Under the pieces are notes generated by a model that had not been told where the DNA came from, made no database searches, and saw only the letters and a program-made list of their open reading frames with translations. Of a DNA stretch of 64,000 bases, positions 30,770-49,281 are shown piece after piece. The translations under genes and the position numbers were made by a program. Each line of letters begins with the position of its first letter. Within the stretch, counting starts at the first letter, position 1. This DNA comes from Mesostigma viride. Its lineage: Eukaryota > Streptophyta > Mesostigmatophyceae > Mesostigmatales > Mesostigmataceae. The stretch spans positions 1,310,976 through 1,374,975 of the forward strand of contig RPFO01000027.1 of NCBI GenBank assembly GCA_009746045.1. Reading direction: 5' to 3'.

Positions 30770-30962
30770 TTACTTCTCGGTCAGCTCGCGGAATCCCTTC
30801 CAGTCGGGTGGCGAGATGTTGCCGTGCGCGCGCATGACCCCCAGCAGTGTGGTGCTGGGGCCGTCAGGGATGACGTCCCCCGTGCGCGTGCGGCGCATCG
30901 TGCGTGCCGTCGCCAGTAGCTCCGACGCCACGTCCCAGTGGCCCTCCGTGTATGCGGTGAAC
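30770..30962 (-). CDS. Cyclase gene, exon 13 (C-terminus)
   Basis: Residues 1049-1112 and TAA: FTAYTEGHWDVASELLATA, then DGPSTTLLGVMRAHG and DWKGFRELTEK, the C-terminal block shared by this cyclase group. Acceptor CCCGCAG. Confidence 0.9.
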
Positions 30963-32981
30963 CTGCGGGGGTGGGGTGGGGTGGGGATATCAAAAAAAAA
31001 AAAAAAAATCCATCAGGAGAGCAGTATTGAATTGATTAGGAGACAGTGGAGGAGGAAGGACAAGGGGGAAATGTGGAGATCGGGAAGACGACGACATAAG
31101 CACTGGGAATTTATAATGCAAGGTACCAGGGCAACCAGGTTCATTTCAAAGGGTTCATTTAAAATGGGTGTCATTTAAAGTAAGGGTTCATTCCCCCAAA
31201 GGGTTCATTCAAAATAAGAGTTCATTCGAAATGTGGGTTCATTCACATTAACGGTGCGCAATACGAAGCTGGGCTGGTGTTGAATGCAGCGTGTGTAAAG
31301 ATGAAAGGTAAACAAATTTGTTACAAGGCTTCTTCAGGATGAAAATTCCAGACGGTAAGGAGATCGAGAATTGTTGTAGGGAGCCTTGCGATGGATGGAG
31401 GGTGGACGCACTGAAACCAAAGGGGGAGAAACCAACCACAACGTGGACAAGCAGTTAACAACAGAGGATGTGAACAAAGACAGGAACAAGTGGGGGGAGA
31501 ATGGGAAGCAGAGAAGCCGAGTCTTTGCTCTTTGCACTACGCGCTTTGCACTTTGTACGTGAATGGCATTAGCGTGCAGTGAAGCGGGGAGGGAGGAAAG
31601 GGAGGGAAGTTAGCAAGGCAACATTACCCCAGGCAAAAACTTCGGCAAAAATAGCCCACCCCATGCACATTGGCAGCAATTTACCATACCATGGCAACCC
31701 TCACTACATTGACAAGCAAACAAAGACAACAGCAAACACACAACGGCCCCTGGCACACACAGAGAGCGCCAGCAAAGCAACCCCCCCCTGGCGGTGAAAC
31801 GTGGCAAAAAATCCCACATGGCAAAAGCTCGCTCAGCATATCACCACGGGAGACGGCTCGCTAGGCGGCTCACCCCTGGCGGAAGGTGGCGAGGAACTCT
31901 GGCGGCGAGTCGGACATGGCGACAATGTCGGGATGTTCCACAAACTCGTCGTTGAACTCGCGAAAGCTCGCGCTGTCCTGAGGGAAAACGGGCGACATCG
32001 GGTCCTCCCCCTCGTCCAGCTTGGGCGGGCTGATGTTGGCCAGGTTGACGTCGTATGTCCACAGGCCCATCGGGCGCAGAGACCCCTTGACGGTCACACG
32101 GTCGATCTCTCGGCACCGGGCACGGACGCCAGGGGACAGAATTGCGGCGAAATCGGAGGAGAGGAGGATCGGGACCCCAAACTGCTTGGTGGCGGCCTCG
32201 AGCCTCGCCGCGATGTTAACATTCGGGGATAGGTAGGAGGCGTCGATCTTGTACTCGGACCCAATTGCACCCTCAATCGCCCAGCCGACGTGGAGGCCGA
32301 ACCCCATGGACACCTCGTAGTGGTCAGTGAAGAAGCGCTTGCGGATGCCCTCGTTCTTGGCAAACTGGGCCAGCCGGGCGCTCTTCTTGAGGGCGGCCAT
32401 GACGACAATGAAGGAGGCGAGCGCCTGGTGTGTGTGTGGGGGGGTGGGGTGGGCAAATGATTATATTGATTAATAACAAAAAAACATGAATAATTTATGA
32501 ATTTATGAATAGTCAAGTGGATATAAATACTTGGATTAGGGTTTGCCAGGGGAGTGGCGCGCGGCAGGCGGCATGTGCGTGTGTGAAAGCGAGCGACAGG
32601 TGCGCGCAAGTGGGTGGAAGGCATGCGGAGGAAAGCTGTGAGATAAGAGATAGCAACACAAGATTATCGCTATCAGCATCATTATCAATCAGATAAGAGA
32701 TAGCAACACAAGATTATCGCTATCAGCATCATTATCAGATCAGAGATAGCAACACAAGATTATCGCTATTAGAATCATTATCAGATAAGAGATAGCAACA
32801 CAAGATTGTCGCTATTAGCATCATTATCCACGATGGTGGTGAAGGGGACGAGCACCGCGGAGTGTGCGTGGGGGGGTGGGGTGGGGGATGGGTTGAGGAG
32901 TAAGTTGTGGGGTTACGGGAAGTGGTATGTGCTGTGTGTGGGGGGAGAGAATACCGGTGGGATGGGAGGGGTGGGCCGGTG

Positions 32982-33023
<42 letters not shown>

Positions 33024-36000
33024 ATTTGTTAACTTTTGTTTGTTTGTTTATTTGTTAACTTTGGGTGCGAATGTGGGGGCTTCAGCAATGCACTCCCAGC
33101 TTCCTGCTCACCTCCGCCCACCCCACACCCACAACTTACTGGTTGTGGTTGCCCTCACAAACTTGTGGTTGCCCTCACAAACTTGTGGTTGCCGTCACAA
33201 ACTTGTGGTTGCCCTCACAAACTTGTGGTTGCCCTCACAAACTTACTGGTTGTGGTTGCCCTCACAAACTTGTGGTTGCCCTCACAAACACCCTGGTTGC
33301 CCTCACAAACTTGTGGTTGCCCTCACAAACTTGTGGTTGCCCTCACAAACTTGTGGTTGCCCTCACAAACTTGTGGTTGCCCTCACAAACACCCTGGTTG
33401 CCCTCACAAACTTGTGGTTGCCCTCACAAACATCCTGGTCGCCCTCACAAAATGCTACTGCCAAATTGTTCTTCAAATTCAGTCATTTCTACTGTACCTG
33501 GCAGTCCTACTTCCTACTACGTTTTCTCACCTGGTCAGCGGTGCGCTGAATCGCCTCCCGCTGCGGCTTGAAATAGTCCTTTATGCTAGACCCGTACCCT
33601 GATTCGTTCTTCTTCTACACCACTTCCCACAACAAGCCACCCCACGGCTTGGAATAGTTTCCAATACTGGACCCTTACCCTCGTTCCTTTCTCTCTCTAC
33701 ACCACTACACGTCTCCTTTCAAAAGTACTACCTTCCTAAACACCACCTTCCTAAACCACTACCTTCCTAAACGACTACCTTCCTAAACGACTACCTTTCT
33801 AAACCACTACCTTCCTAAACGACTACCTCCCTAACCACTACCTTCCTAACGACTACCTTCCTAAACGACTACCTCCCTAACCACTACCTTCCGAAACGAC
33901 TACCTTTCTAAACGACCTTTCTAAACGACTACCTTTCTGAACACCACCTTTCTACACCACTACCTTTCTAAACGACTGCCTTTCTAAACGACTACCTTTC
34001 TACACCACTACCTTTCTAAACGACTGCCTTTCTAAACGACTACCTTCCTAAACCACAAGCCACCCCACGGCTTCTCACCTGGTCGGCGATGCGCTGGATG
34101 GCCTCCCGCTGCGGCTTGGTCGGATTCTCCAGACTGCCCATCGAGATGAACTTTGGGAACTTCCAAACGAGCAGGAACGCGTCGCCGATGTTCTTGTTGG
34201 CAGAGCCCGAGTGGAGCGAGACCTCCATGTGGACGATGCGCGCGATGGAGTTGACAAACTCCATCACCTGGCGGGGGTTTCGGGGCAGTTGTGGGGTTTC
34301 GGGGAATGAGGGAATCCAGGGACAGTGAAGGAAAGGTTCAATGATGAGGGGCTAGAGGGACGACTCAGTCAATGCGGACGATGCGTCGATGGAGTTGACA
34401 AACTCGATCACCTGGGGCAGCGGTGGGTCTTCAGAAACGAGGGAATGCAGAGAGAGAGTGAAGGGAAGGTTAACTTTGAGGGAGAAGTTCATGTGTACCG
34501 ATGGCGTGTGTACCGCAGTGCACCTTGGATAGAGTTGACAAACTTCATCACCTGGGGGCAGCGGTGGGGCTCGAAACGAGGGAATCCAGGGACAGTGACA
34601 GAAGGGGTAACGTTGAGGAGAGAGGAGTCTGTGGGTACAGTGCACCGATGGAGTTGACAAACTTCCATCACCTGGAGGCGAGCGTGGGCTCTGGGGGGAG
34701 AGAGGGGATGAAAGGAAATCGGGTGGGAAAGGGCTAGCTGAGGAGCAAGACCTGCTTGTGTGTGAGAGCATGCGTGCGATGGAGATGACCAACTCCATGG
34801 CCTGACGGTGGGTGTGGGCGTTTAGGGCAATGGCGGACGACGGCTTCGACTAAGGCAAGGGCGGTGGATTGTGAAAGTGTTGAAAGTACAGGGAATGGGG
34901 AAGGGAGTTAAGTTGTACTAATAAAATATTGGAGTAGTATATATTTTTGTGATTGTGCGGGAGTCGTTGAGATAAGAAGACTTAGACAAACTCTGCCACC
35001 CAGGGGTGGGCATGGGGTTGACTTGTTGGCGTGGGAAAAGAGGAAATGGAGGGAAAAGTAAGAGACGGGTCAACGGTGAGGAGTTTCCCGTCCATAAAGC
35101 TTTGAACCTCACATGCGCTACCCTTTAGATAGTGTTACTTCAGATTACAGTATTACTATATTACAATATTACTTCAGATTACCCGCAAAATATTCTTGAG
35201 TATATGTGCACAACACGTACTTGCTCTTGCAGCACCCCCCTGTTACGTCAATAAAAAGCTTTCGGCCTCACATATGCTCCGCGCCTCTATGTAGTCTATG
35301 TACTTGCGTCATTCACCCCCTTATACGCGTGGTATGGCGCAAAATTTGACCTGCACATATAACGAATATCAAAGAATCTGACCACACTCTACTACACATC
35401 TGCCACGCACCTGCTCCTGCAGCACTTTGGCCACATCCATGAAGCTTCAAACTTCCTCAGGAGCTACTATGTAGTCTCTGATATTACTCCAGAACCCCAA
35501 ACATACATCACTACTATGGAGCCTATCTAATTACCTTAACTACTGTGGAACCTATCTAATTACCTATCTAATAACCCCGCACATACCGCCGGGAGGGCTG
35601 GGGTATAGTGCCAGCATAACATTCTACGGCGGTGCATTCTCATTTCAGCAGGTCAGTCATAGAAAACGAGCATCGCTCCCCAAATATACATAGCATACAT
35701 GAAACTAAAAATAGCGGGTATAAATAGTAAATAATATTGTATGCACGATAGCGCAGCTGCACCTGCAGCACCTCAGTCACATCAACGAAGCTCAGCGGCA
35801 AGTCACATCAACAAAGCTCAGCGACGTACTAGTACTATGTATACATACTAGTTGTACTGTTTATGTATGTATATACTACATCGTGGTACTACTTTATGGA
35901 CAGCGCACCTGCCCCTGCAGCACCTCGGTCCCTTCAACGAAGCTTGTAGGTACTAGTACTATGTACACACAGTAGAAGGGCTATGTACATACAGTAGTGT

Positions 36001-39000
36001 TGCTATGTATGTATATACAGTAGAAGGGCTATGTACATACAGTAGAAGGGCTATGTACATACAGTAGAAGGGCTATGTACATACAGTAGTGGTGCTGTGT
36101 ATATACAGTAGTGGTGCTATGTATATATATGGACAACGGACCTGCTCCTGCAGCACCTCGGTAACGTCCGTGAAGTTGCGGATGTCGCAGAACCCGAAGA
36201 TGGCCACCATCTTGTGGCCAGCGACCATCGGGTTCAGGTCACCCCCGTTCTTCATGTTTTCGCCGATGATCTCGGCCCCTGCGTCGCCGAAGCCGATAGC
36301 CAGGAGCGAGCAGATCTTGATGATGCTGTTCTCCAGGATCATGGTCTGGCGAGGGGAATGGGTAGGTTGCATGGGAACGGGAAGTGGGGGGGGTTAATGG
36401 TATCCCGTGTCATGGTCTGGCGAGGGGAATGGGTAGGTTGGATGGGAACGGGAAGTGGGGGATGATTGAGATTTCTTGGGGATGAGAGTCAATACCTCTT
36501 TTGATGAGCAGATGATCAACGTCTTGCTGAATTGGTTAACAAAGCCGGCGGAAAATATGTAACATTAACAAAGCCGGCGGAAAATATGCAATACGGCCAG
36601 TAGTGATCAGATTTTCACTACGCAGTTCTCATCAGTAAGGTCTGGGTAGTGCGTGACCTGTGCCAGCAGGAGAACAAGGGCAGGCAGGGCGGCAGTGGCG
36701 CGCAGCATGACAGCGTCTGTGGGTGGGCAAGCAGGCGCGTTGGATGGGGCTCGCATCGGTAGGGTGATTGATCGCGATCGAGCTGTGATGATAGAAATGG
36801 TGTGTTGATGATAAAAATGTCTTCTCTCATCACAATTTGGTGGATGGTGGTTGTGGGTCGGTATGTTGATTGATAGCGAGAGGTGAGGGTAGACACAGCG
36901 TTATGTTGCCGGTAATGTCTTCTCGCATGGGGTTCCATTGGCCTTGGGTGGATGGGGTTGTGGGTCGGGCGGGGGGGTTGCGTAGGGCTGGGTTTGGTGA
37001 AGTGACGTATGGAAGCTTTATGAGCGATAATACATTGGCGAGAGACCATGCCGGCATCAGCATCCCTCTTGTTATCATATACTGGCAAGAGAACATGCCA
37101 GCACTAGCATCCCTGGTATAAATCCTAGTGTAATCCCTAGTACAATCGCTAGTATAATCCCAAGCATGATGCCTAGTATAATCCCACGCAAAATCCCGAG
37201 CATAATCCCTAGTACAACCCCTAGTACAATCCTTAGTATAGCTGTTGTGGTATAATATCCTTAACCCACCTCAAACTGGGTGTATCCTCCACCCACCTCA
37301 AAACTGGTTGTGTTCTCCACCCACCTCAAACTGGTTGTCCGACTTCTTGCGCTTGCCCGTCTTCTCTTCTTCATGAAGCACCTTCTGCTTCATCAGCGGG
37401 TTCTCCGATACGTCCCGCACCTGGGGCACGAATAGCCGTTTAAATGGCAGCGAGGCAGCGACCGACAGCAGCGGCCTATTTGTTAAATTGGGTTCTCTGA
37501 TACGTCCCGCACCTGTGGTACCTGATTACCTGGGGTATTACGGCCCTAAGGCACGAGAAACAATTAGCAGCGTCTTTTAACGCACACGAAACGTGTGTGA
37601 TGACAAGGAAGCATCACTCCCCTCCCCCCCCGTTCCCCCAGCACCACCCTGTACTTATAGAAAACTTCACACCCTCACCTTGTTAATCATGCTCTAAATG
37701 ATGACCAAAGCAATAGCACAAGCACTCATGAACAGCCCCAATCAAGCTAGAGAGCCTAGACTAGGGTATCTAGAGCAGCTAGAGTGCCTAGGCTAGGGTA
37801 TCTAAAGGAGGTAGAGCGCCTAGACTAGAATATCTAGAGTAGTTAGAGCGCCTAGACTAGGGGTATTTAGAGTAGCTAGAGAGCCTAGACAAGGGAAACC
37901 CTGGGAAATCGCACCTGCTAGATCATGCGCTCAATGGGCAGGGTGTCGAGCACACCAACCACCCTACATAGCAGCCTGATTCCCACACTATGTGGCATGA
38001 TGTAGCGCGCACGCTGTGTGGCATGATATAGCGCGCACGCTGTGTGGCATGATATAGCGCGCACGCTGTGTGGCATGATATAGCGCGCACGCTGTGTGGC
38101 ATGATATAGCCCGCACGCTGTGTGGCATGATATAGCGCGCACGCTGTGTGGCATGATATAGCGCGCACGCTGTGTGGCATGCTATAGCGTGCACGCTGTG
38201 TGGTGTGATATAGCCCGCACGCTGTGTAGTATGATGTTATGTTCCTAATTAATTAATTATGCAGTATGATATAGCCCGCACCCGCACACTGTGTACTATG
38301 AGCCTCCTCACCTTCTTGATCATGCGCTCGATGGGCATGATGACGAGCTCGTTGGCATCGCGAGAGAACAGGAGCGCTCCCATGCCCAGAATGATGCACA
38401 CAAAGACAGTGCTGGCGCACGCACGCATCAAGCAGGGGGGGAGGGGGGGCATAGGGGAATAGGGGAATAGGGGAACAGGGGAATGGGGGGTAAACATGAT
38501 GCATTCTCAAACATGGTGCTGGCAGACAGGATGAGCGATGAGGGCATCGTGAGGCCAGAATAATGAGCGACGAGGGATGGGCATCGTGAGGCCTGAATAA
38601 TGAGCGACGAGGGATGATCATCGTGAGGCCAGAATAATGAGCGACGAGGGATGGGCATCGTGAGGCCAGAATAATGAGCGACGAGGGATGGGCATCGTGA
38701 GGCCAGAATAATGAGCGACGAGGGATGGGCATCGGGAGGCCAGAATAATGAGCGACGAGGGATGGGCATCGGGAGGCCAGAATAATGAGCGACGAGGGAT
38801 GGGCATCGGGAGGCCAGAATAATGAGCGACGAGGGATGGGCATCGGGAGGGGGTCAGGGAGAAAGTGTGTGTGGATGCCGAAGATGCAAGATGCAGATGA
38901 GCCAGAGCAGACGTAGGGTTGATGGGCAGACGTAGGGTTGATGGGCAGACGTAGGGTTGATAGGCAGACGCAGGGTTGATGGGCAGACGCAGGGTTGATG

Positions 39001-42000
39001 GGCAGACATAGGGTTGAGCAGAGGTAGACTTCAAGCACGCAGCACCTGTGCTCATCCGTGAAAACTCAATGGCGAGGCAGACGGGGGGTGTAAATGGATT
39101 TGCATTAGCATTTGTTTCCCTCGATCGCGCACAGCTTCCATTAATGTGTTGCGCTATCTGTTTACCCACCGGCATGTGTTCAGGATCGCCTGCATCCGGA
39201 TTCCTCCATTCCTATTCAACACACACAACAGATAGGCGGGGTGTTCCAAAAAATACCCACCGGCATATGTTTAGGATGGCCTGCATCTGGCTCTCCCACC
39301 GCTTGTCGCTCACGGACTCGCTCGTGTCAAAAATAGACAGCAGCATTTCCCCGGGCCGGAGGTGGTCCAGCCGCTCTCGCTTGAACAGGATGGTCCCGTT
39401 GATAGACTGCCAGCGAGGGCGAGGGGGAGAGGGCAATGGGTTGCATTTGCATGACAGGTTAGGTAGCATCAGAAACGGTGGCGGATGAGGGAAGGTGGAC
39501 AAGCACGCATAGCAAACGGTGGGGGGATGAGGGAAGGTGGACAAGCACGCATAGCAAACGGTGGGGGGATGAGGAAAGGTGGACAAGCACGCATAGCAAA
39601 CGGTGGGGGGATGAGGAAAGGTGGACAAGCACGCATAGCAAACGGTGGGGGGATGAGGAAAGGTGGACAAGCACGCAGTATGCCCCAGCGTGACTAAAGA
39701 GGTCCCGTTGAGCGCTATGAGCGCGTCCACGCACGCCTCTAGCTCCTATACGTGTGGAGTCAACCCCTATCTATACATAGGGGCACGTAGGTCTCCAGCT
39801 CCTATACGTTAGGAGTCAACCCCTATCTATACATAGGGGCACGTAGGTCTCCAGCTCCTATACATGTGGAGTCGACCCCTATCGATACATAAGGGCACAT
39901 AAGCACCCACCATGGTCAGCGGATGGATCGTTTCCACATAGGTCTCCAGCGTGGTCCGGTAAATCGAGCTGTCATTGCTCTGAATAAAATCCCAGTAGTC
40001 CAGGCCACTCCTCGAGCTCCCCATGTAGCTCTCGTGCACCATCTGGGGCGGTCCATAGAGCAGCCAGTAAGCGACACATCAAACGACACATAGAGCAACA
40101 CATGTGACAAAGGGGGCATCGCAGAAGCACACCGCAACAGCTTCCCAATGCAACCCGCTACGCAAAGGGGGTTGGATGTGTTTAATGCTGCTCACCATGT
40201 AGGTCCTGTGCCATGTCTGCGACCATCCATGGAACAACGACATGTACCAGATAAAGTAGAAACACGCCAAGAGTCTATTTAAGGGATGAGCGACCGAGCG
40301 GTCGCGGGACAGCATCACATTCCCCAGTAGTTATGCTGTCATTGATGCCAGCAATACTGGAAACGTTACAAACCCCTTTGGGTAAATGGGATGTCACTAT
40401 ATTGAAGAAAGTCATTGCCATGCCTGCAGTGTTGGACGTGCCCAGCACGAAGTTTAAGTTGGCGTAAAGTTTAACTAAAAGTTGGTGTTGAAGACAAGGA
40501 TCATCCATCACAATCAGCACCACCCGCCACAAGAGCACGCCAAAAACAAGACAAGGGTGCAGTGCTTTTAGTAACGGTACGCGTGCGTCAGCCGCTGACG
40601 CGTCAGTGTCTGACCCGTCCGACTTTTTCGTCCGCGCGTCAGACAGCTGACGCGTAAATTTTGGCTCTGCGTCAGTCGACTGACGCATAAATTTTGTCTG
40701 CACATTAGTCGTCTGACGCGTAAATTCAGGCAGCATGTCAGTACTTATGGGCACCGAGTCTATGCGTCAGGCAGGGTCAATATAAGGTGGGTACCTACTA
40801 ATGTACTGAAGTCCACTGAAATGCTAACTTCGCACTGGATATCTACGAATTCAAGTTCACCAGTTCAGGTCTGTTCGTTGATATGCTTCAAGATTCTAGG
40901 CCGTTATCATGCCCATGCCAGACCCGCCGGCCCTAGCCTGCTTGGCGGCGAGAGTGACGAGAGTTCTAGACGAATGTAAAGTTGTAACCCAGGACGACTG
41001 GCCATGGTCGATGTCTCGATGATGGCAAAGGTTTTAGGAATATGATTGATGAGCTGATTGATGAAGCGTTGCGAGGTTGCCTGATTTACATATTGCTTTG
41101 AATCGAATTCCAGGTGTGTTTATTAACGCTGTAGATTTGTTTGCATAAGAAAGAATTCTGTCCATTATTAGATGCGTAGGGAAATTTCGGGCCGGGTCAG
41201 TAATATTGTATAAACATTTAACAACGTTAATGGTTTAGTCCGATAGTCAACTAGCAAAGTTAGCGACCTGGGGGTTGGAAGTTTTTGGGTGAAGGGATGG
41301 CGCCGGAAGGAATACTGGGAAAAATTAAATCTGGGGGGATCGCAGCTTTTTTCATGCCGAAACAGGCCGCCGACATGGCCAAAGCGCCTGCGCCTGGTCC
41401 GCGTGCCATTGTTGGCGTAGGCCAGGCAGCCGACGCGCTGAACCGCAGCAAGAGGAAAAGGGGGAATGATAGCAATGCAGCCAGCAGTGCAGCAGCAGCA
41501 GCATCGGCTCAGTCCGGCAATGCTGGTGAGCCCCCAGGCTGACGCTCCGCCAACGGCGGCAAGTCAGCCAGGCTGACGCGGACTAAAACCCTTACTAAAA
41601 GCACTGCAAGGGTGAACAAGAAAAGACAGGAGGCAAAACGAGAGGCAAGAGAGAGCAAGGCCATACAACGAAAGAGGCAAGAGAGCAGACCGCAGCAAGG
41701 ACGATGACACGATTGATGCAACAAGTTGATAGTGCTCCTGTAGTACTATCTCATACTACAGTCTCAATACTATAGTCTTAATACTATAGTCTTAATACTA
41801 CAGTCTTAATACTATAGTCTTAATACTACAGTCTTAATACTACAGTCTTAATGCTATAGTCTCAATTCTATAGTCTTGATACTACAGTCTTTATACTGTA
41901 GTACTCTTTCATATTAATGGGACTCTCGCATGAGACGATGGCGATACCCACCTCCAGGCCCCGCAGCGTGACCGCGCCCTACCCACCTGCGTTCATGCTA

Positions 42001-43211
42001 ACAGTGCTCAGTACTCTCGAATAAGACAACGATGGCGACACCCACCTCCAGGCCCCGCAGAGTGAACGTGTCTGGGATGAGGTAAAAGTTGGCGTCAAAG
42101 ATGGGGACCATGAACAGCATGAGCAGCACGCCGATGATGACGCGCCGCGTGGTCAGGTCCGAGAGCTTCTGGCCGACGCGGCTCTGCTGCACCCCACCAG
42201 GCTTGCCCTGCACGGTGACAAGTAGTGTCACGGGTGGGTGCACGACATATGTCAGTACAGTGTGACATTCAGTAAGGCATCACATGCTGCATCACGTCAC
42301 AGTGCCTGGCCTGCGCGGTGACATGCAGTCCCAGGGTCAAGCAAAAGTCCCCGAAGATGGTGGTTTGTATTACAAGTCAACTGCTCCACGTTGCTGGGCT
42401 TGGAGTGCAGGACAGGGCCGGCTCATGACCGAGGAAAGAGAGGATGGTGGTGAGTGTGATGGATGCTGCTATGGTGCACCTCGCTGGGCATGACCTGCAG
42501 GGTATAGGGGTTTCCAGTTTCCTTCGGTGGTTAGCAGCATATAAATAGCTGCACCTCGTTGTTTGGCCGGCAGGGCAGGGACCAGCCCCTAACGAAGGAA
42601 AGAGATGCGTGGCGGTGAGTATCAACAAACAAGTTTATTGGTGGTCACACATACGGTAGCAGAAAGTGATGTGGATGAACTACCCGCGTCATTATGTAAT
42701 TTATTTCTTTTATCATGCACCTCGCTACACTTCGCCTGGCCGAGGCATTTACTTCGTACACCGCCCCACAGTGCGCCGCCTTGCCGACCTGCGACAGGCC
42801 CGGCACAACCCACAATACGATAGAGTCTAGGAAGCATTTCCCCAGCCCACCCCACGCACCATCTTGCCAAGGTGCTCCTGTTGAAGCGCGTACAACTCCG
42901 GGTCCATCTTGGCGCGCTGGACCTCGTCCTGCGTGCGCTTGAGGTTATGATACATCTTGAAGACCCGCACGAGGCGGATCAGGCGCAGAATGCGGCCCGC
43001 GCGCGTTCCGGCGCGGGAGGTGCGGCCCGCGCGGGCGAGCGTGGCCGAGTTCGCGCCCTCGTCTGTGCAGGGACAAAAAATGTCATCGATGCAGGGTAGC
43101 AGGGTCAAGAGGTCTGGCGCCGGGTGATGGAGCAGAGGGCGTAGAAATGAGCGTCGGGGCACTAGTGTGGTTGCAAGCATGGCACATGCCGCCATGCCCC
43201 TGTCTGCGCAA

Positions 43212-43253
<42 letters not shown>

Positions 43254-46200
43254 TATTATTAGTCTGCGCAAGATACTCGAGAATGTCACAGGCCAGGCCC
43301 TCGTCTGCACTAACTAATTAAGTTAGTTTACAGGCCAGGCCGACAAGGAGCACTGGATGAGGGTTAGAGGGACAGCGTGGCATTCCAAAAAATTAAAATG
43401 CTATATGATTGTTTATTGTGTCAGTGCTGTGCCTTCACCTGCGCGAGGTAAACAGGTGAGAAGGCAAGAGCAGGAACCAGAACAGGTGCGAAGTCAAGAA
43501 GAGATGGATGGTGGAGCATAGCGCGTGTTGGGGGGGCATGCACATGAGAGACAGTGAGAAAGGGAGCCAGAGAGTTTTCTTTGGCGCGGATGCCGCCGGG
43601 CCATTGTCTGCGAAGGAAAGTTAAGTTGCCTTGCAAAGGTTCACAAGTGAAAATGGTGGAGCAGAGGAGGGTGGGAAGAGCGTGTAGACAACATGTATGT
43701 ATATACTACTATATACTACTATAGCATACATCCTTTATGTACGTATACATCCTTTATGCATTGAAATAGCTCAACAGGAGTGAGAGGAGCGCGGGAGCCA
43801 TGGCAAAATTGGTAGCGTGGATGAGGGCACGGCCCCTTCCGCTGCGCCAGGTGATTAGGTGAATAGGCGAACAGGCAAATAGGTGAATAGGTGAATAGGC
43901 GAACAGGTGAATAGGTGAATAGGTGAACAGGTGAATAGGTGAATAGGTGAACAGGTGAATAGGTGAATAGGTGAATAGGTGAATAGGTGAATAGGTGAAT
44001 AGGTGAATAGGTGAATAGGTGAATAGGTGAATAGGTGAATAGGTGAATAGGTGAATAGGTGAATAGGTGAATAGGTGAATAGGTGAATAGGTGAATAGGT
44101 GAATAGGTGAATAGGTGAATAGGTGAATAGGTGAATAGGTGAATAGGTGAATCAAGTGAACAGGTGAATAGGTGAATAGGTGAATAGGTGAATAGATGAA
44201 TAGATGAATAGATGAATAGGTGAATAGGTGAATAGGTGAATAGGTGAATAGGTGAATAGGTGAATCAAGTGAACAGGTAACTAGGCGAAGCCAAGCAGTA
44301 CAAGGGGAGCACGAAGAGGATGGCATGTACACGCGCGTGGCAGCGGACAAAAAAAAGACAAATTTCGGGCGCCCGTGTGTGAACCAAGTAGATTGTCCAC
44401 ATGGATTAAAGTGGATTGTTCACGTCAAGAAGTTGGGAGATGACGGAGCAGTAAGTGAGGGCATGGGCATCAGGGCAATAGCATGAAAGCGAGCGTGGCA
44501 GGGGATGTCATGCCCTCGCCTGCGCAGGAAAACAGTACAATACCATCACAAAGTAAGCCATGATGGAGCACATAAATAAGGGCGAGGTGTGTGCTGGAGC
44601 CATTGCACAAAAACACAGCGTGGCAGAGCATGCCGCCCGATCCGCTCACCTGCACAAACAGGTCCATCTCGATGGGCACATCCGGCAGCAGCGATGTTAC
44701 TTACTACCCAGCAGCAGCGACGTTACTTACTACAACAACCTAGATCCATAATCTATATATAAAATATATATCCATAATCTCTATATATTAAAAATATATC
44801 CATAATCTGTCTATATATAATAGATGACTTGCCTGATTCGCTCTCCTGAATAAACAGGTGCATTACGACGGGTAGATCCAGCAGCAGCGATAACGTCGCG
44901 ATCAGGTCGAGCCAAAAATAGAAGCCGAGGAAGTAGTCTGGCTTAGATATGCTCGCCAGGACTGGAGGGTGGGCCGGTGGGGGGATAGGCAAGCATGCGT
45001 GTGTTAGTGTTAGTGTTAGTGTGCGTGTGCGTGTGTGTGTGTGTGTGTGCGTGTGTGTGTGTGTGTGTCTGTGTGTGTGTGTGCGTTGTGTTTGTGTTTG
45101 TGTTTGTGTTTGTGTTTGTGTTTGTGTGCGTGTGTGTGCGTGTGTGTGTGTGCGTTGTGTTTGTGTTTGTGTTTGTGTTTGTGTGCGTGTGTGTGTGTGT
45201 GTGCGTGTGTGTGTGTGTGCGTGTGTGTGTGTGTCTGTGTGTGTGTGTGTGCGTGTGTGTGTGGGGGGGAGGGTGGGGTGGGGGGGGGGGGGGGGGGGGT
45301 GCGTGTGCGTGTGCGTGTGCGTGTGCGTGTGCGTGTGCGTGTGCGTGTGCGTGTGCGTGTGCGTGTGCGTGTGCGTGTGCGTGTGCGTGTGCGTGTGCGT
45401 GTGCGTGTGCGTGTGCGTGTGCGTGTGCGTTGTGTTTGTGTTTGTGTTTGTGTTTGTGTTGTGTTTGTGTTTGTGTTTGTGTTTGTGTTTGTGTTTGTGT
45501 TTGTGTTTGTGTTTGTGTTTGTGTTTGTGTTTGTGTTTGTGTTTGTGTTTGTGTTTGTGTTTGTGTTTGTGTTTGTGTTTGTGTTTGTGTTTGTGTTTGT
45601 GTTTTGGTTGTGTTGTGTTTGTGTTTGTGTTTGTGTTTGTGCTTGTGTTGTGTTGTGTTTGTGTTTGTGTTTGTGTTTGTGCTTGTGTTGTGTTGTGTTG
45701 TGTTGTGTTGTGTTGTGTTGTGTTGTGTTGTGTTGTGTTGTGTTTTGGTTGTGTTGTGTTGTGTTGTGTTGTGTTGTGTTGTGTTGTGATGTGTCGTGTC
45801 GTGTCGTGTCGTGTCGTGTCGTGTCGTGTCGTGTCGTGTCGTGTCGTGTCGTGTCGTGTCGTGTCGTGTCGTGTCGTGTTGTGTTGTGTCGTGTTGTGCT
45901 GTGCTTTTTTTTTTTTTTTTTTTTGGTGTGTGTGTGTGGTGTGCAAGCAAGATCAAGACAAAGGGCCAAAAGGTTAGCGCGATACAGCAGGTGTCAAGAG
46001 GAGCGAATGGGGAAGTAGTCTGGCTTGGATATATTGGCTTGGATGTATTGGCTTGGATACATGCTCACCAGCACGGCAGGGTGGTGGGAGGGACAATGGG
46101 CAGGGACAATGGGGAGGGACAATGGGCAGGGACGACGGGGATGCCAGATCATAAGAAAATTCGGAAGCGACGGGGAGCGCTACGCCATCAGCAATGTTCC

Positions 46201-49200
46201 GTGAGGGTGTGTTCAGTCATGGATATGGTTGCTAGGGAAAGGGGCAGGGGGCAGGGGGTGGGGGGTGGGGGGTGGGGGGTGGGGGTGGGGGTGGGGGGTG
46301 GGGGTGGGGGGTGGGGGTGGGGGTGGGGGGTGGGGAGGGGGGGTAAGATGTGCGGACGCTCAAAGCATACATCAACTTGTAGCGCGTTTTATTTCTTTTT
46401 TTCTTTGGAGGGGGGAGGGTGTGTGGGGTGGGGGGTGGGGGGGGCGGTAGCAGCGCTGTCAGAAATGAGAGTGCGACCAAGTGGATGGGCAAGAAAAGGC
46501 AGGGACAAACAAGCCGTAAGCAACCTTGCACCGAAATGTTTACTAGAGGAGTAAAACTAAAGTAGGGATAGAGCAACTCACAGAGTTATAGTGGTTCTTT
46601 TTACGGAGATAGACCAGTAAAACGAAACTAGGGTTATAGCAATTCACGGAGCTATGTCGGGAATAGCAGGGTGATATACGCTAGTACACTACTTGTCTGT
46701 AAGCATTAGTACAGTGTAGTGCAGTCTTGAACTATTTATAACTTGACTCACGCGGCTCAAGCGGGAAGAGCGCCAGGCAGATGATCATTCATATGAGTAG
46801 TAGCGTAGCTGCGCATACAGTACATACAGAGCACCATAGCAGGCCAAAGTAGAGCGACTCACTGAGCTCGAGCGAGAAGAGGACAAGGCACATAATGACC
46901 AGCCCAACGAACACGCCGTCGGCGCCCTTGTACGTGGCCGCTAGCCGGATGTCCTCCCCAACCAGCGCCCAGATGGTGATGACGAGCATGAACACCGTCG
47001 TGCTCGGGTGGTCGATCGCGCGGGAGATCTTCTCAAGCCAGGGGTGCTGCCGCCGGCGCTTGGAGTCGAAAAGATTCTCCTTCTCGTCCACTAGTGGAAG
47101 GGCAAGGAGGCGGTGGTGGTAATGGTGTGGGTGGGTGGGTGGGGTGGGTGGGGCGTGCAGCAGTGAGGAACTAGGGGGGGGGGGGGGGGGAAGCCATGCG
47201 GGAATTTTTGAAACTGAATTTGTTATAATATGTTAGCTTGTCAATTATAATATTTACATTTTGTCGTGTTGTTATGATATGTTTACGTGCCTCCATGGGG
47301 AGCCTTCTAGGAAACCTCCAAGAGTTTTACAGAAGAGGCCCAAAAGAAAGGGGGGGGAAGAATGGGGCCAGAGATGGTCACCGGATGCACGGATCAACAT
47401 GCAACCACATCAGGCAACCACATCAGGCAACCACATCGGGCAACCATATCAGGCAACCACATCGGGCAACCACATCAGGCAACCACATCGGGCAACCACA
47501 TCAGGCAACCACATCAGGCAACCACATCAGGCAACCACAACATGCAACCACATCAGGCAACCACATCAGGCAACCACATCAGGCAAACCAACACAACGTA
47601 ATTAGCAGTCATTCTAAAACAATATAATCTTTCCAAGCAGTTGATGTGAGGCCTACGGTGTAGATCCTCACCAGGTCACGCCTGTTCTGGATTAATTTAA
47701 TTTACAAGTAGACTGCATCACGGGACGCCTGTTCTCAATACTTAATACTGTTTTTAATTCAAGAATACTGTTCTTAATACTTTAATACTGCTATTAATAC
47801 TATCTGGATATCTGCGCCGCGGACGACTATCTGGTTCCAGCAACATCATGGCACAAATTCTTCCGAAAGCGAACCAGTTCTGGTTTCCTCCTGCATCTCT
47901 CCATAACATCCATCAACATTATAACATTATCAACATCTCTGATATTGCTATCTCATTGATTGCTATTTGGTTCAAGCACCTTAACGGCACTATTATGCAT
48001 GCTATTACCAATATTATATCACAATCAAGATTGCATCTCATTGATTGCTATTTGATTCAGCCAGAACAAACAAAAAAAACATAACGGCAGAAATCCTCCC
48101 AACAGCAAGCCTGTTCCAACGACCTCACGATCCGCCCTTTCTTCCACATGTCCCGCTTCTTCCCTGTCCCGTGGATCAGATGTCCACTGTCAACCTGGCC
48201 TGCCGTCCCTGCTCTCCCAACCACCCATCCACGATGTACTCCCAACCACCCATCCACGGCCAAGGCAGCACGCACCTGGATCCGCGCCCGGCAGCAGGCT
48301 CCTCCTCCGCCCCAAGATCCCCGTGTTCCGCCCTGCGCTCGACCGCCGCCTCGCCGCCGCTGCCGCCGCCGCCGCGTTGCCCCCTGTGAAGCTCCTCACC
48401 CGAAGGAATTCGGGCTCCGCTGGGAAGCCCACCGGATAGGGCACCACGGGCGCGGCCGCGGCGGCCACGCTCTGCACCCCCTTGAGCATGTTTATCCCGA
48501 GTTCCAGGGACGAGCGGAGGGAGGACCCGGGGGCCGTCTGCCCTCGGACGGAGGCCATACCCTTGGCGTCGACGGCGCTCCCGCGCTGGCGCTGGGGCCG
48601 GCCACCGCCCCCATGGGGGCCGCCATCCCCGACCACGGTGTCGAATCGACCACCCACGGGTCGGGGCGCTGAGTCATCGATGAAGTCCACGTTGGGTCGG
48701 GGAGCACCGGCTGGGGGTGGCTGCCCTAGGTGGCCCGGGTGGCCACCCCCGTGAGCCTCGTCAAAGGTGACCTGGTAGCGCGTCACCACGCCGCTGGTGG
48801 AGAGCGTGGAGAGCGATTTGTTGAGCTCGGGCCCGCGCCCGTTGTGGCTATACTTAGAATCGTGGCTATATTTGGGATCGTGGCTGTACTTGGAGTCGTG
48901 CGCGTGCTTGGCGTCCGAGAGGGCCTGCGATGCAGGGCCTGAGCGTATGCCCGGCTCGCCCGCGTCATGAGGGTCGCCGCGCAGTGGGGAGGGGTGGTGC
49001 CCGTTGGCCATGAGGCCGGAAGGGTGGCCTGGATGCGCAGGGGGCAGGGGGGCCCTGCTCTGGGGGTTTGCAAAATAGGCAGGGGAAGGGATTTCCCCGG
49101 GGGATAGGGGCTCCTCCAGGAGGTGCCGTGTCTCGGGGTTATCGCCACGTGCCGCGACCTTGATGGAGGCTTCCTCCCGCGTCGGGCCGAGCGCGTCCAT

Positions 49201-49281
49201 CGGGAGCGACCCATTTTCCTGCGGGCAAGCCATCAGTTTCTTGGTGGGAGGCCCCGATATTTCCCTGACGTCATAGTCCAT
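30770..49281 (-). CDS. Voltage-sensor membrane cyclase, class III (13 exons)
   Basis: Exons (high to low): 49281-48276, 47090-46863, 44961-44833, 43062-42860, 42207-42046, 40042-39911, 39406-39261, 38411-38312, 37420-37325, 36345-36142, 34267-34079, 32424-31874, 30962-30770. They total 3339 nt, 1112 aa plus TAA, with every junction in phase. The first 340 residues are low-complexity. Residues 350-500 form a voltage sensor: S1, S2, S3 and an S4 with Arg at regular spacing. Two more membrane helices (about 545 and 675) bracket an outer segment of about 100 residues. Residues 780-980 are the cyclase: metal Asp788 (FCDIRNF) and Asp831 (IGDAF), SEYKIDASY, Asn935 and Arg939 (VNIAARL), ending with GFRELTEK. 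It should convert ATP (or GTP) to a cyclic nucleotide under membrane-potential control; no pore helix is seen. Comparable fusions are known in ciliates, apicomplexans and algae. An in-frame TAG about 130 bp upstream, with no ATG between, supports the start. Confidence 0.9.
30963..31873 (-). other. Cyclase intron 12
   Basis: Holds a GGTTCATT-type array (31135-31245) and an A run (30990-31008). Otherwise plain. Confidence 0.7.
31135..31245. repeat. Degenerate GGTTCATT repeat
   Basis: About five to six units of 20-22 bp built on GGGTTCATTTMAAATG. Confidence 0.7.
31874..32424 (-). CDS. Cyclase gene, exon 12 (catalytic core, second half)
   Basis: Residues 866-1049, the longest catalytic exon: GFGLHVGWAIEGAIGSEYK, DASYLSPNVNIAARLE (substrate and transition-state residues Asn935, Arg939) and FGVPILLSSDF, then an acidic tail. 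Lys and Ser/Thr-type residues near the base pocket favour adenylate over guanylate cyclase, which is inference. Donor CAGGG|GTGAGC, phase 2. Confidence 0.9.
32640..32830. repeat. Minisatellite in cyclase intron 11
   Basis: Three to four units of roughly 45-60 bp containing GATAGCAACACAAGATTATC and GCTATYAGMATCATTATC. Confidence 0.85.
32985..33020. repeat. GT microsatellite
   Basis: An uninterrupted TG run of about 36 bp in cyclase intron 11. Confidence 0.9.
33140..33455. repeat. 18-bp minisatellite in cyclase intron 11
   Basis: About 17 units of TTGTGGTTGCCCTCACAAAC with occasional variants (ACCCTGGTTGCC). Confidence 0.9.
33715..34060. repeat. CTACCTTCCTAAACGA array in cyclase intron 11
   Basis: About 20 pyrimidine-biased units of 15-17 bp (plus strand), adjacent to the donor edge of exon 11. 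Confidence 0.85.
34079..34267 (-). CDS. Cyclase gene, exon 11 (catalytic core)
   Basis: Residues 803-865: EFVNSIARIVHMEVSLHSG, then NIGDAFLLVWKF with the second metal Asp831. Acceptor CGCCAG, donor CAG|GTGAGA, phase 0. Its 5' edge is repeated five times in the upstream intron. Confidence 0.9.
34375..35010 (-). repeat. Five degenerate copies of the exon 11 acceptor edge
   Basis: Copies centred at 34375-34420, 34528-34565, 34645-34682, 34768-34808 and 34978-35010 repeat the junction at 34230-34275 (CACCTGG then GAGTTGACAAACT on the plus strand). Spacing is about 120-200 bp and divergence grows with distance. Confidence 0.8.
35215..35942 (-). repeat. Four degenerate copies of the exon 10 donor edge
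   Basis: Copies at 35897-35942, 35750-35797, 35404-35448 and 35215-35262 repeat the junction at 36131-36180 (plus-strand core CACCTGCTCCTGCAGCACCT). Several retain a potential GT donor. Confidence 0.8.
35945..36125. repeat. 22-bp ATGTACATACAGTAGAAGGGCT array
   Basis: About seven units directly downstream (minus strand) of exon 10. Confidence 0.85.
36142..36345 (-). CDS. Cyclase gene, exon 10 (start of catalytic domain)
   Basis: Residues 735-802: TMILENSIIKICSLLAIGFG, AGAEIIGENMK, then VAIFGFCDIRNFTDVTEVLQ with the first metal-binding Asp788. Donor CAG|GTCCGT, phase 0. Confidence 0.9.
36335..36470. repeat. Tandem duplication spanning the exon 10 acceptor
   Basis: 36341-36395 and 36412-36465 are near-identical; the second carries an intact ATGGTCTGGCGAGGGGAATG junction word, upstream of the true acceptor. 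Confidence 0.88.
37120..37235. repeat. CCTAGTATAATCC array
   Basis: About nine degenerate 12-14-bp units in cyclase intron 9. Confidence 0.8.
37325..37420 (-). CDS. Cyclase gene, exon 9 (cytosolic linker)
   Basis: Residues 703-734 (VRDVSENPLMKQKVLHEEEK and a basic stretch KRKKSDNQFE) connecting the membrane helix to the catalytic domain. Phase 0. Two extra copies of its donor edge follow it directly. Confidence 0.86.
37735..37890. repeat. CTAGAGCGCCTAGACTAG array
   Basis: Four units of about 38 bp in cyclase intron 8. Confidence 0.8.
37985..38235. repeat. 26-bp minisatellite in cyclase intron 8
   Basis: About nine units of GCGCGCACGCTGTGTGGCAT plus GATATA, very homogeneous. Confidence 0.92.
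38312..38411 (-). CDS. Cyclase gene, exon 8 (second membrane helix and linker)
   Basis: Residues 669-702: TVFVCIILGMGALLFSRDAN is a membrane helix, and ELVIMPIERMIKK is the HAMP-like connector found in this cyclase type. Donor AAG|GTGAGG, phase 0. Confidence 0.9.
38520..38860. repeat. 37-bp minisatellite in cyclase intron 7
   Basis: About nine units containing AATAATGAGCGACGAGGGAT. Confidence 0.92.
38905..39020. repeat. 18-bp minisatellite in cyclase intron 7
   Basis: Six units of GGGCAGACGTAGGGTTGAT type. Confidence 0.9.
39261..39406 (-). CDS. Cyclase gene, exon 7 (outer segment)
   Basis: Residues 621-669 (NGTILFKRERLDHLRPGE, SVSDKRWESQMQAILNIC). Acceptor CTGGCAG, donor GCCG|GTGGGT, phase 2. 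An alternative open stretch at 39690-39742 repeats part of this exon and could be spliced in instead, but it lacks a good donor. Confidence 0.78.
39475..39690. repeat. 42-bp minisatellite in cyclase intron 6
   Basis: Five units containing GTGGACAAGCACGCATAGCA, nearly identical. Confidence 0.92.
39733..39860. repeat. Three copies of an exon 6 segment in intron 6
   Basis: Units of about 53 bp contain ACGTAGGTCTCCAGCTCC, which echoes 39938-39958 inside exon 6 (TLETYV on the minus strand). Confidence 0.75.
39911..40042 (-). CDS. Cyclase gene, exon 6 (outer segment)
   Basis: Residues 577-620 (MVHESYMGSSRSGLDYWDF, SSIYRTTLETYVETI), probably extracellular or lumenal. Phase 0. The exact join across the intron with the hAT insertion rests on phase and splice sites, not on a recognised motif; an extra small exon in 40043-42045 cannot be excluded. 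Confidence 0.72.
40560..41606. mobile_element. Non-autonomous hAT transposon, 8-bp TSD
   Basis: CAAGGGTG occurs at 40552-40559 and 41607-41614. The element begins CAGTGCTTTTAGTAA and ends with its inverse TTACTAAAAGCACTG. An 8-bp duplication with CAGTG ends is diagnostic of the hAT superfamily. At 1047 bp it is too short for a transposase. An 81-codon frame at 41297-41542 (IAAFFMPKQAADMAKAPA) may be a transposase N-terminal remnant. The left end also holds several TGACGCGT palindromic words (40580-40720). Confidence 0.9.
41297..41542 (+). pseudogene. Possible hAT transposase N-terminal remnant
   Basis: 81 codons from MAPEGILGKIKSGGIAAFF to a TGA, with a poly-Ala/Ser end. It lies inside the hAT element. 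No catalytic or zinc-finger motif is visible, so the identity rests on location only. Confidence 0.35.
41735..41905. repeat. TCTTAATACTATAG array
   Basis: About ten units of 14-17 bp in cyclase intron 5. Confidence 0.85.
42046..42207 (-). CDS. Cyclase gene, exon 5 (membrane helix)
   Basis: Residues 523-576: SDLTTRRVIIGVLLMLFMV contains one strong membrane helix; the outer segment starts at PIFDANFYLIPD. Phase 0 at both ends. The donor GAG|GTGGGT and exon end recur at 41940-41975. Confidence 0.87.
42860..43062 (-). CDS. Cyclase gene, exon 4 (S4 voltage sensor)
   Basis: Residues 455-522. ARAGRTSRAGTRAG and RILRLIRLVRVFK place Arg at every third position, the signature of an S4 gating helix, followed by a charged linker (KRTQDEVQRAKMDPELYALQ). 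Acceptor CTGCACAG; donor ATG|GTGCGT, phase 0. Confidence 0.9.
43211..43262. repeat. ATT microsatellite
   Basis: About 16 ATT units near exon 4. Confidence 0.92.
43855..44285. repeat. 8-bp GTGAATAG minisatellite
   Basis: Around 50 units of GTGAATAG with rare variants (GTGAACAG, ATGAATAG). In the minus frame it would read PIHLFTYS repeats, but no gene context supports translation. Confidence 0.94.
44833..44961 (-). CDS. Cyclase gene, exon 3 (S3)
   Basis: Residues 412-454 with KPDYFLGFYFWLDLIATLSL (S3 with its conserved Asp). The acceptor is CCTCCAG; the donor is GC (TCAG|GCAAGT), the only one that keeps phase with exon 4. A partial copy of its 3' half followed by a normal GTGAGC donor sits at 44643-44697. 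Confidence 0.83.
44995..45900. repeat. Block-structured GT-rich satellite
   Basis: Successive homogeneous blocks: mixed TG/TGTGCG (45000-45270), a G run (45262-45300), GTGTGC (45301-45430), TTTGTG (45430-45660), TGTTG (45650-45790) and TGTCG (45790-45890). Each block uses a different 5-6-bp unit of the same GT theme. Confidence 0.95.
46225..46345. repeat. G-rich GGGGGTGGGG array
   Basis: About 100 bp of nearly pure G/T with G runs of four to six, a candidate G-quadruplex region (on the non-coding strand of the cyclase gene). Confidence 0.88.
46863..47090 (-). CDS. Cyclase gene, exon 2 (S1-S2)
   Basis: Residues 336-411: basic KRRRQHPWLEK, then S1 (TTVFMLVITIWALVG) and S2 (GVFVGLVIMCLVLFSLEL). 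Acceptor CACTAG, donor CTCA|GTGAGT, phase 1. A second, degenerate copy of the last 45 bp with its donor lies in the next intron at 46741-46790. Confidence 0.88.
47091..48275 (-). other. Cyclase intron 1
   Basis: 1185 bp, GTGCGT...CACTAG. Contains a G run (47175-47191) and the 13-bp array at 47400-47590. Confidence 0.78.
47400..47590. repeat. 13-bp CAACCACATCAGG minisatellite
   Basis: About 14 units with CGGG/CAGG variants. Confidence 0.93.
48276..49281 (-). CDS. Cyclase gene, exon 1 (N-terminal cytosolic region)
   Basis: Encodes residues 1-335: disordered, Pro/Gly/Ser-rich, with a YSHDSK-type tandem repeat (KYSHDPKYSHDSKYSHNG), two poly-Ala runs and a basic end (RRRSS, GRRRSLLPG) that could be a phosphorylation target. 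Donor CCAG|GTGCGT, phase 1. Confidence 0.8.

Follow-up and report, generated by a model that had tools for sequence, protein, structure and literature searches.

Introns can be gained by tandem duplication, and among the literature matches listed this is the closest known phenomenon to the one described here. In the potato RdRp case the duplication is reported to cross an intron-exon boundary (PMC4974935), other cases are described from Drosophila (PMC2891723), and a review (PMC3488318) cites Zhuo and others (2007), a paper that by its title likewise links tandem arrays with introns, those of humans. The subject of the present analysis is a gene for a cyclase of the streptophyte alga Mesostigma viride, located in a window of 64,000 nt (assembly GCA_009746045.1, contig RPFO01000027.1, positions 1,310,976 to 1,374,975 of the forward strand). 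The introns of this gene contain degenerate copies of the edges of their own exons, here termed echoes. The likeness to intron gain, as described in PMC4974935, is that a duplication crossing the boundary leaves exon sequence and splice signals in, or as, an intron. However, there one event makes a new intron, whereas in M. viride existing introns lengthen, through several events each, with the splice positions remaining fixed.

Other described systems share some features with the echoes. Breaks with protruding ends are known from experiments to give rise to tandem duplications (PMC5730883, PMC8355091); these are short, direct and local, and tandem units are also common in M. viride introns, but here the young copies that touch an exon are mostly dispersed (11/14). 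Tandem exon duplication and mutually exclusive exons, as outlined in PMC9013439, similarly place exon sequence in a neighbouring intron, but in M. viride only the edges are copied and coding constraint was not found. The M. viride genome paper gives a mean intron of 1142 bp, with 30.1% repetitive elements in intron space, and the part of its account of introns that was available has no mention of echoes (PMC6947507). Nor is there a description of introns that reiterate their own exon edges in the titles and visible abstracts of the open-licence literature, among the matches listed. Plant genomes, according to what Vaughn and Bennetzen (2014, cited in PMC5730883) reportedly found, also carry non-tandem short inserts copied from within a few hundred bases, beside tandem ones. 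Unlike these, the M. viride copies are almost only direct, occur densely in introns and have been iterated, which leaves a record of the exon edges.

The cyclase gene has 13 exons on the minus strand, and runs from window position 49281 to 30770, with exon 1 at 48276..49281 and exon 13 at 30770..30962. The model, in which exon 12 (31874..32424) was lengthened by 2 nt to restore phase, encodes 1112 aa and shows a 100% full-length match to the protein jgi/Mesvir1/15598 (P0001), whose name we read as denoting M. viride. The Pfam entries for P0001 are PF00520, PF00211 and PF26726, which we take to be ion-transport and cyclase domains. There is one copy of the gene, as 13 of 13 matches of a genome search fall in its own locus. 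Thus paralogues are ruled out as the source of the echoes.

Each exon edge, consisting of the last or first 60 exon bases, was aligned by Smith-Waterman (2/-3/-5/-2) with its own intron, after simple repeats of period up to 12 had been masked in the introns. The resamplings, 200 per intron, are first-order Markov sequences rather than exact dinucleotide shuffles. The original prediction had named shuffled introns as a suitable comparison, and the cyclase matches beat chance at 11 of the 24 edges, which outscore all 200 resamplings of their own intron. Exon sequences similar to the introns are confined to the neighborhood of the splice junctions: cyclase exon 40-mers reach a score of 30 in 12/37 cases within 10 nt of an edge and in 14/61 within 20 nt, but in 1/42 at 21-40 nt and 0/186 farther in. 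Scores of edges against their own intron go up to 61, with a maximum of 25 against any other cyclase intron. Introners, or transposon-made introns, were considered and rejected on the latter figure, as the same sequence does not recur in other cyclase introns, no genome-wide search with echo DNA having been made.

Eight further genes, chosen regardless of echoes, were located by a genome search with seven E. coli enzymes. These are Fd-GOGAT, CARB, GCVP, IleRS (ILES), PurL (PURL), two AlaRS genes and OGDH, and their models were built in this analysis from homology. GC donors were accepted only in the form GCAA following a G. Where exon matches lay more than 30 query residues apart, the intron between them was skipped (two in ILES and one each in GCVP, PURL, ALAS1 and OGDH), and one ILES intron, in which an exon had probably been missed, was taken out of the counts. 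All results come from one M. viride assembly, with events not polarised.

Of the 180 exon edges at the 90 introns of the nine genes, 34 are copied within their own intron at a score of at least 30, and 42 outscore all 200 resamplings. No edge (0/180) reaches a score of 30 with the reverse complement of its own intron, and no exon sequence from 80-140 nt inside the edge (0/132) does so with the intron itself. When the cyclase gene is left out, 25/156 edges remain. Echoes at this score are found in six of the nine genes, five of the eight besides the cyclase gene: 9/24 edges in the cyclase gene, 9/24 in IleRS, 6/16 in OGDH, 6/30 in CARB, 3/16 in PurL and 1/30 in GOGAT, the others being GCVP (0/6), AlaRS-1 (0/20) and AlaRS-2 (0/14). 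The spread among genes exceeds chance (p 0.0004). The cyclase echoes are real and go beyond this one gene; the pattern extends to unrelated genes of the same genome, where the original prediction had proposed that it be sought. Echo alignments extend a median of 33 nt into the exon with the 60-nt queries, their median spacing is 192 nt, and 45 of 48 echoes sit in the half of the intron that adjoins their own edge. Introns with echoes are also longer (median 867.5 vs 584 nt, p 0.004; the count is per edge, and one intron may enter twice). The earlier claim that introns lengthen by duplication able to cross splice junctions is supported.

Splice junctions are not special as copying templates. 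A direct copy in the same intron was found for 270 of 1012 non-overlapping 60-mers from intron interiors, and an inverted copy for 16 of 1012; intron copying is almost only direct. For intron pieces within 120 nt of the intron end the direct figure is 56/302, and comparison with the exon edges (34/180) gives an odds ratio of 1.02. Thus the process is general within introns, and exon edges are one template among others. The special role of the junctions that was implied at first does not hold, and the exon edge is instead the best-preserved template, because one of its copies is held fixed by selection.

Young duplications, taken as those of at least 94% identity and at least 22 nt, are of two kinds. 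At shifts of up to 50 nt there are 29, of which 26 are tandem; at shifts above 50 nt there are 39 clusters, 13 of them tandem, 2 with at most 30 nt between the copies and 24 dispersed, and the two lists overlap in arrays. Isolated young pairs number 24 of 106, the other 82 overlapping one another, many in tandem arrays, and the isolated ones have a median shift of 107 nt. Fourteen young duplications touch an exon: 11 are dispersed, 2 are tandem, and in the remaining one the copies are separated by 19 nt. Those that are wholly intronic include at least 24 tandem and 13 dispersed ones. Tandem units dominate inside introns, and dispersed short copies dominate where an exon is involved. It should be noted that self-BLAST appears to miss shifts under about 50 nt, as an exact 41-nt duplication in CARB intron 10 was not recovered; results based on it (the cyclase self-alignments, the local duplication rates and the copies found near the cyclase gene) may omit short shifts, and the Smith-Waterman tests are unaffected.

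Clean tandem duplications across a donor are that of CARB intron 10, 41 nt in length, and one of 47 nt in CARB intron 6. Tandem duplication across junctions, the process named in the original prediction, thus does occur, but with 11/14 exon-touching copies dispersed it is not supported as the only process behind the echoes, and the intron-side flank is similar in just 14 of 41 echoes (first six genes), which tells against it as a complete explanation. Copies with unrelated flanks are found in IleRS intron 3 (a 38/38 exon copy), in CARB intron 12 (a pure exon copy, 28/28, that stops two bases short of the junction), in PurL intron 1 (58/60, with one gap) and in CARB intron 11 (an exon copy at least 94% identical). 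Ladders of decoy sites, also foreseen, do exist: in IleRS intron 15 copies lie 85-767 nt from the donor, and ladders are also present in IleRS introns 9 and 12. The ladders of IleRS intron 15 and of the cyclase exon 11 acceptor look like old tandem units.

The scarcity of tandem duplications over exon edges (2/14), set beside their abundance inside introns (at least 24), was seen post hoc. It possibly reflects selection against decoys close to the true site, or it may be that arrays need room.

The fate of the copies was followed in 48 exon-only echoes; 41 of them extend to 3 nt or less from the end of the query and were used for the splice-site counts. Among these 41, 30 retain the splice dinucleotide, compared with 33.1 expected from the exon-part identity of 0.899. 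In the 16 of 48 echoes with an unambiguous frame, differences fall on the three codon positions as 20/16/26, over 169/163/167 sites. The copies decay as if neutral, irrespective of splice function or, where the frame is known, of codon position, and nothing indicates that the decoys are either retained or purged. As splice sites many of them remain plausible by score: 25/41 lie within the range of real splice sites, 10/41 equal or exceed the score of their own real site, and splicing at 30/41 would shift the reading frame. Altogether an echo site of real-site strength, with similar exon context, accompanies 17 of 180 edges (14 of 90 introns) at a distance of tens to hundreds of bases.

Introns of M. 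viride probably grow by frequent local duplication, tandem as well as short-patch, with the exon edge as a nearby template. The enzyme and the lesion that we infer would act through slippage, template switching or error-prone break repair, by which nearby DNA would be duplicated. A growing strand would slip to a nearby stretch of the same strand and copy a short patch there. If the strand then continued, the arrangement A-B-A'-B' (tandem) would be formed, and if it returned, the arrangement A-B-A' (dispersed); since tandems are common, the return step would be needed for the dispersed class only. Duplications inside exons would be purged by selection, and intronic ones would be tolerated, since splicing continues at the original copy next to the exon. 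The exon edge, with one copy held by selection, would be the most readable part of the record, and the intron sequence would become a palimpsest of the exons that carries decoy splice sites.

Several points weigh against growth by local tandem and patch copying. Inside introns, dispersed copies are no more frequent than tandem units. The process is uneven, as three of the nine genes (GCVP and the two AlaRS genes) have no edge at a score of 30; in GCVP 2/6 edges beat all resamplings, at a score of 25. In the AlaRS-1 introns 49 of 136 pieces have an internal copy, largely from one 60-nt array in the sixth intron, yet 0/20 of the edges pass. Polymerase theta-type template switching usually yields inverted copies too, and the near absence of these (16/1012 intron pieces, 0/180 edges) is unlike that expectation; slippage or fill-in thus fits better, and the process is not filed under polymerase theta. 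The comparison with non-gene DNA, in which introns exceed three segments of contig C335 that lie outside the cyclase gene (15/272 direct and 10/272 inverted copies; p 1.7e-16 for the direct rate), is drawn from one neighborhood, searched 600 nt on each side and not within an intron, and the sample is at least partly transposon (a Tf2-type domain is found in L010). Lastly, the similarity between echo and donor, in ungapped register, falls from 15/24 at the seventh intron base to 7/24 at the eighth. This drop past the splice core stems in part from faster decay on the intron side and from scattered patch ends, but copy ends may also favor the splice core; the steep fall persists with exon-only queries and is incompletely explained. 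A special retention of splice cores was also considered and was rejected as an artefact of junction-spanning alignments, the excess being gone with exon-only queries that end 3 nt short.

The alternative closest to the preferred explanation is that whole units are duplicated in tandem across the junction, through fill-in of staggered breaks and end joining or through slippage, and that the intron half is then eroded or deleted. The break-derived duplications that are experimentally established (PMC5730883, PMC8355091) are of this type, the copies are direct only, and most young duplications at short shifts (26/29) and a third of the clusters above (13/39) are tandem, with adjacent copies whose unit length equals their spacing. 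The two young tandems over CARB donors, the ladders at the cyclase exon 11 acceptor and in ILES introns 9, 12 and 15, and the 14/41 echoes with a similar flank also agree with it. What this scheme accommodates poorly are the 11/14 exon-touching young duplications that are dispersed, and exon copies of 94% identity or more that already have unrelated flanks (ILES intron 3, PURL intron 1, CARB introns 11 and 12). As the sole source of the echoes, tandem duplication is rather unlikely.

That the echoes are functional splicing decoys or stepping stones maintained by selection is very improbable. The strength of the echo sites (25/41 in the range of real sites, 10/41 equal to or above their own) and the similarity that continues through the splice core before it drops would suit such a role. 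However the dinucleotide survives no better than the remainder of the copy does (30/41, with 33.1 expected), 30/41 sites would shift the frame if used, and intron-only copies, including the short dispersed kind, are equally common. Still less credible is an origin as remnants of intron birth by exonic AGGT tandem duplication, or of whole-exon duplication. Both leave exon-like sequence in introns, as PMC4974935 and PMC2891723 indicate, but after intron birth the end of the upstream exon is expected at the far (3′) end of the intron, and 45/48 copies are in the near half; a whole-exon duplication is at odds with the median reach of 33 nt (60-nt queries) and with the absence of coding constraint in the 16/48 testable echoes. 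Chance, composition or an assembly artefact can be set aside almost entirely. Simple repeats are indeed abundant in the introns, but those of period up to 12 were masked, and 0/180 reverse-complement and 0/132 exon-interior matches stand against 34/180 at the edges. Many copies differ from the exon by 5-20% (mean identity 0.899), and such divergence is not expected from assembly duplication.

A wider version of growth by local copying is doubtful, but is put forward tentatively. According to it, direct-only local copying, in tandem units and in patches of about 22-60 nt and over distances of a few hundred bases, would drive most of the growth of introns in this lineage; it would be concentrated in introns over intergenic DNA and possibly tied to transcription, and spliceosomes would routinely choose among near-identical decoys. 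Transposon-free intron lengthening is mostly inferred from bulk statistics. In M. viride single growth events can be read, because the exon-edge template is held fixed by selection, and they supply a clock for the copying process as well as a map of it. The near-identical decoys amount to a natural experiment on splice-site choice, and transcript data, which the genome paper reports for M. viride (PMC6947507), could show how often the wrong copy is used.

The original prediction named 14 cyclase edges with echoes. Eleven of these are clear, and three, the acceptors of exons 4, 6 and 7, are weak. By local alignment, clear copies were obtained for all the donor edges listed. The exon 2 (46863..47090) donor edge is copied at 46745..46785 (31/41, GT kept), that of exon 3 (44833..44961) at 44635..44695 (49/61, ungapped), and that of exon 5 (42046..42207) at 41922..41974, where the copy spans the junction (48/56). 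The copy for exon 7 (39261..39406) is at 39163..39199 (33/37, GT kept), with a flank that is dissimilar in a gapped local test, and that for exon 11 (34079..34267) is at 33524..33570 (43/47, GT kept, flank unrelated). All these copies, and those that follow in this gene, are on the minus strand. Exon 8 (38312..38411) has two donor-edge copies, the first at 37912..37951 (34/40) and the second at 37673..37695 (20/23). Exon 9 (37325..37420) has two near-tandem ones at 37264..37310, with spacings of 28 and 55. Exon 10 (36142..36345) has four, at 35895..35929 (32/35), 35757..35783 (23/27, GT lost to CT), 35405..35444 (33/40) and 35201..35236 (29/36).

Among the acceptors, those of exons 9 and 10 are clearly copied, the former at 37490..37521 (29/32, AG kept) and the latter at 36410..36461, a young copy of 52 nt with 98% identity that lies at a distance of 71 nt, with 19 nt separating the two copies. 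In the case of the exon 9 donor and the exon 10 acceptor the support comes from junction-spanning copies (scores 35 and 89), with the exon part alone at 23 and 25. Five copies had been claimed for the exon 11 acceptor, of which four pass and the fifth does not: copy 1 at 34369..34415 (43/48), copy 2 at 34528..34558 (28/31), copy 3 at 34630..34678 (42/49) and copy 4 at 34742..34822 (63/81, AG kept). This ladder recurs as longer units, with a 360-nt self-alignment at 69%. The exon 4 (42860..43062) acceptor, for which several copies had been listed, has an exon score of 22 and a single weak junction-spanning copy at 44489..44528 (31/40, two gaps, score 32). The weak echoes of the exon 6 (39911..40042) and exon 7 acceptors score 24 and 22, and are equalled by 2/200 and 5/200 resamplings, respectively. 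That copies closest to the exon are the most similar, as had been stated, is seen as a trend only (21 vs 10 pairs in 10 ladders from all genes, permutation p 0.077).

Three acceptors absent from the earlier list also have copies. The exon 3 acceptor is clearly copied at 46041..46084 (36/44, three gaps, score 39), where AG is lost (CG), and an exon-only copy is found at 46011-46032 (21/22). The exon 5 acceptor has two weak copies, with scores of 31 and 29, at 42462..42503 (31/42, AG kept) and, gapped, at 42285..42337 (41/53, five gaps). The copy of the exon 12 acceptor region at 32840..32885 (39/46, score 55) is mostly intron, with 16 nt of exon that alone score 18, and AG is lost.

Echoes may also be present in genes whose exon edges are suggested by codon usage. 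In a second gene of the window, a likely donor edge at 5547-5586, placed by codon usage only, has a copy of 40 nt at 5624..5663 on the plus strand (82.5%). At L014, near the cyclase gene, an exon end suggested in the same way has a 27/27 identical copy.

Cyclase intron 3 (window 44832-43063) has a GC-AG splice pair (GCAAGT), the sole GC donor in the 90 modelled introns. Cyclase introns 2 and 3 also contain very long microsatellite or minisatellite tracts, at window positions 45001-45950 (a GT-rich array) and 43857-44280 (a GTGAATAG-type array). At 56-60 kb of the window, local duplication is 31% direct and 35% inverted, around repeated open reading frames that are possibly retroelement pieces. 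Beyond the window, at 82662-89168 (L016-L017), 6.5 kb are open in one minus-strand frame, in a region that is largely repeat-masked. In the genome search with the E. coli enzymes, contig C2011 gave long matches without introns to IleRS, AlaRS and SucA, beside weaker GltB-like and CarB-like ones, and contig C557 has a long intronless GltB match. By these matches both contigs look like bacterial contaminants in the algal assembly.

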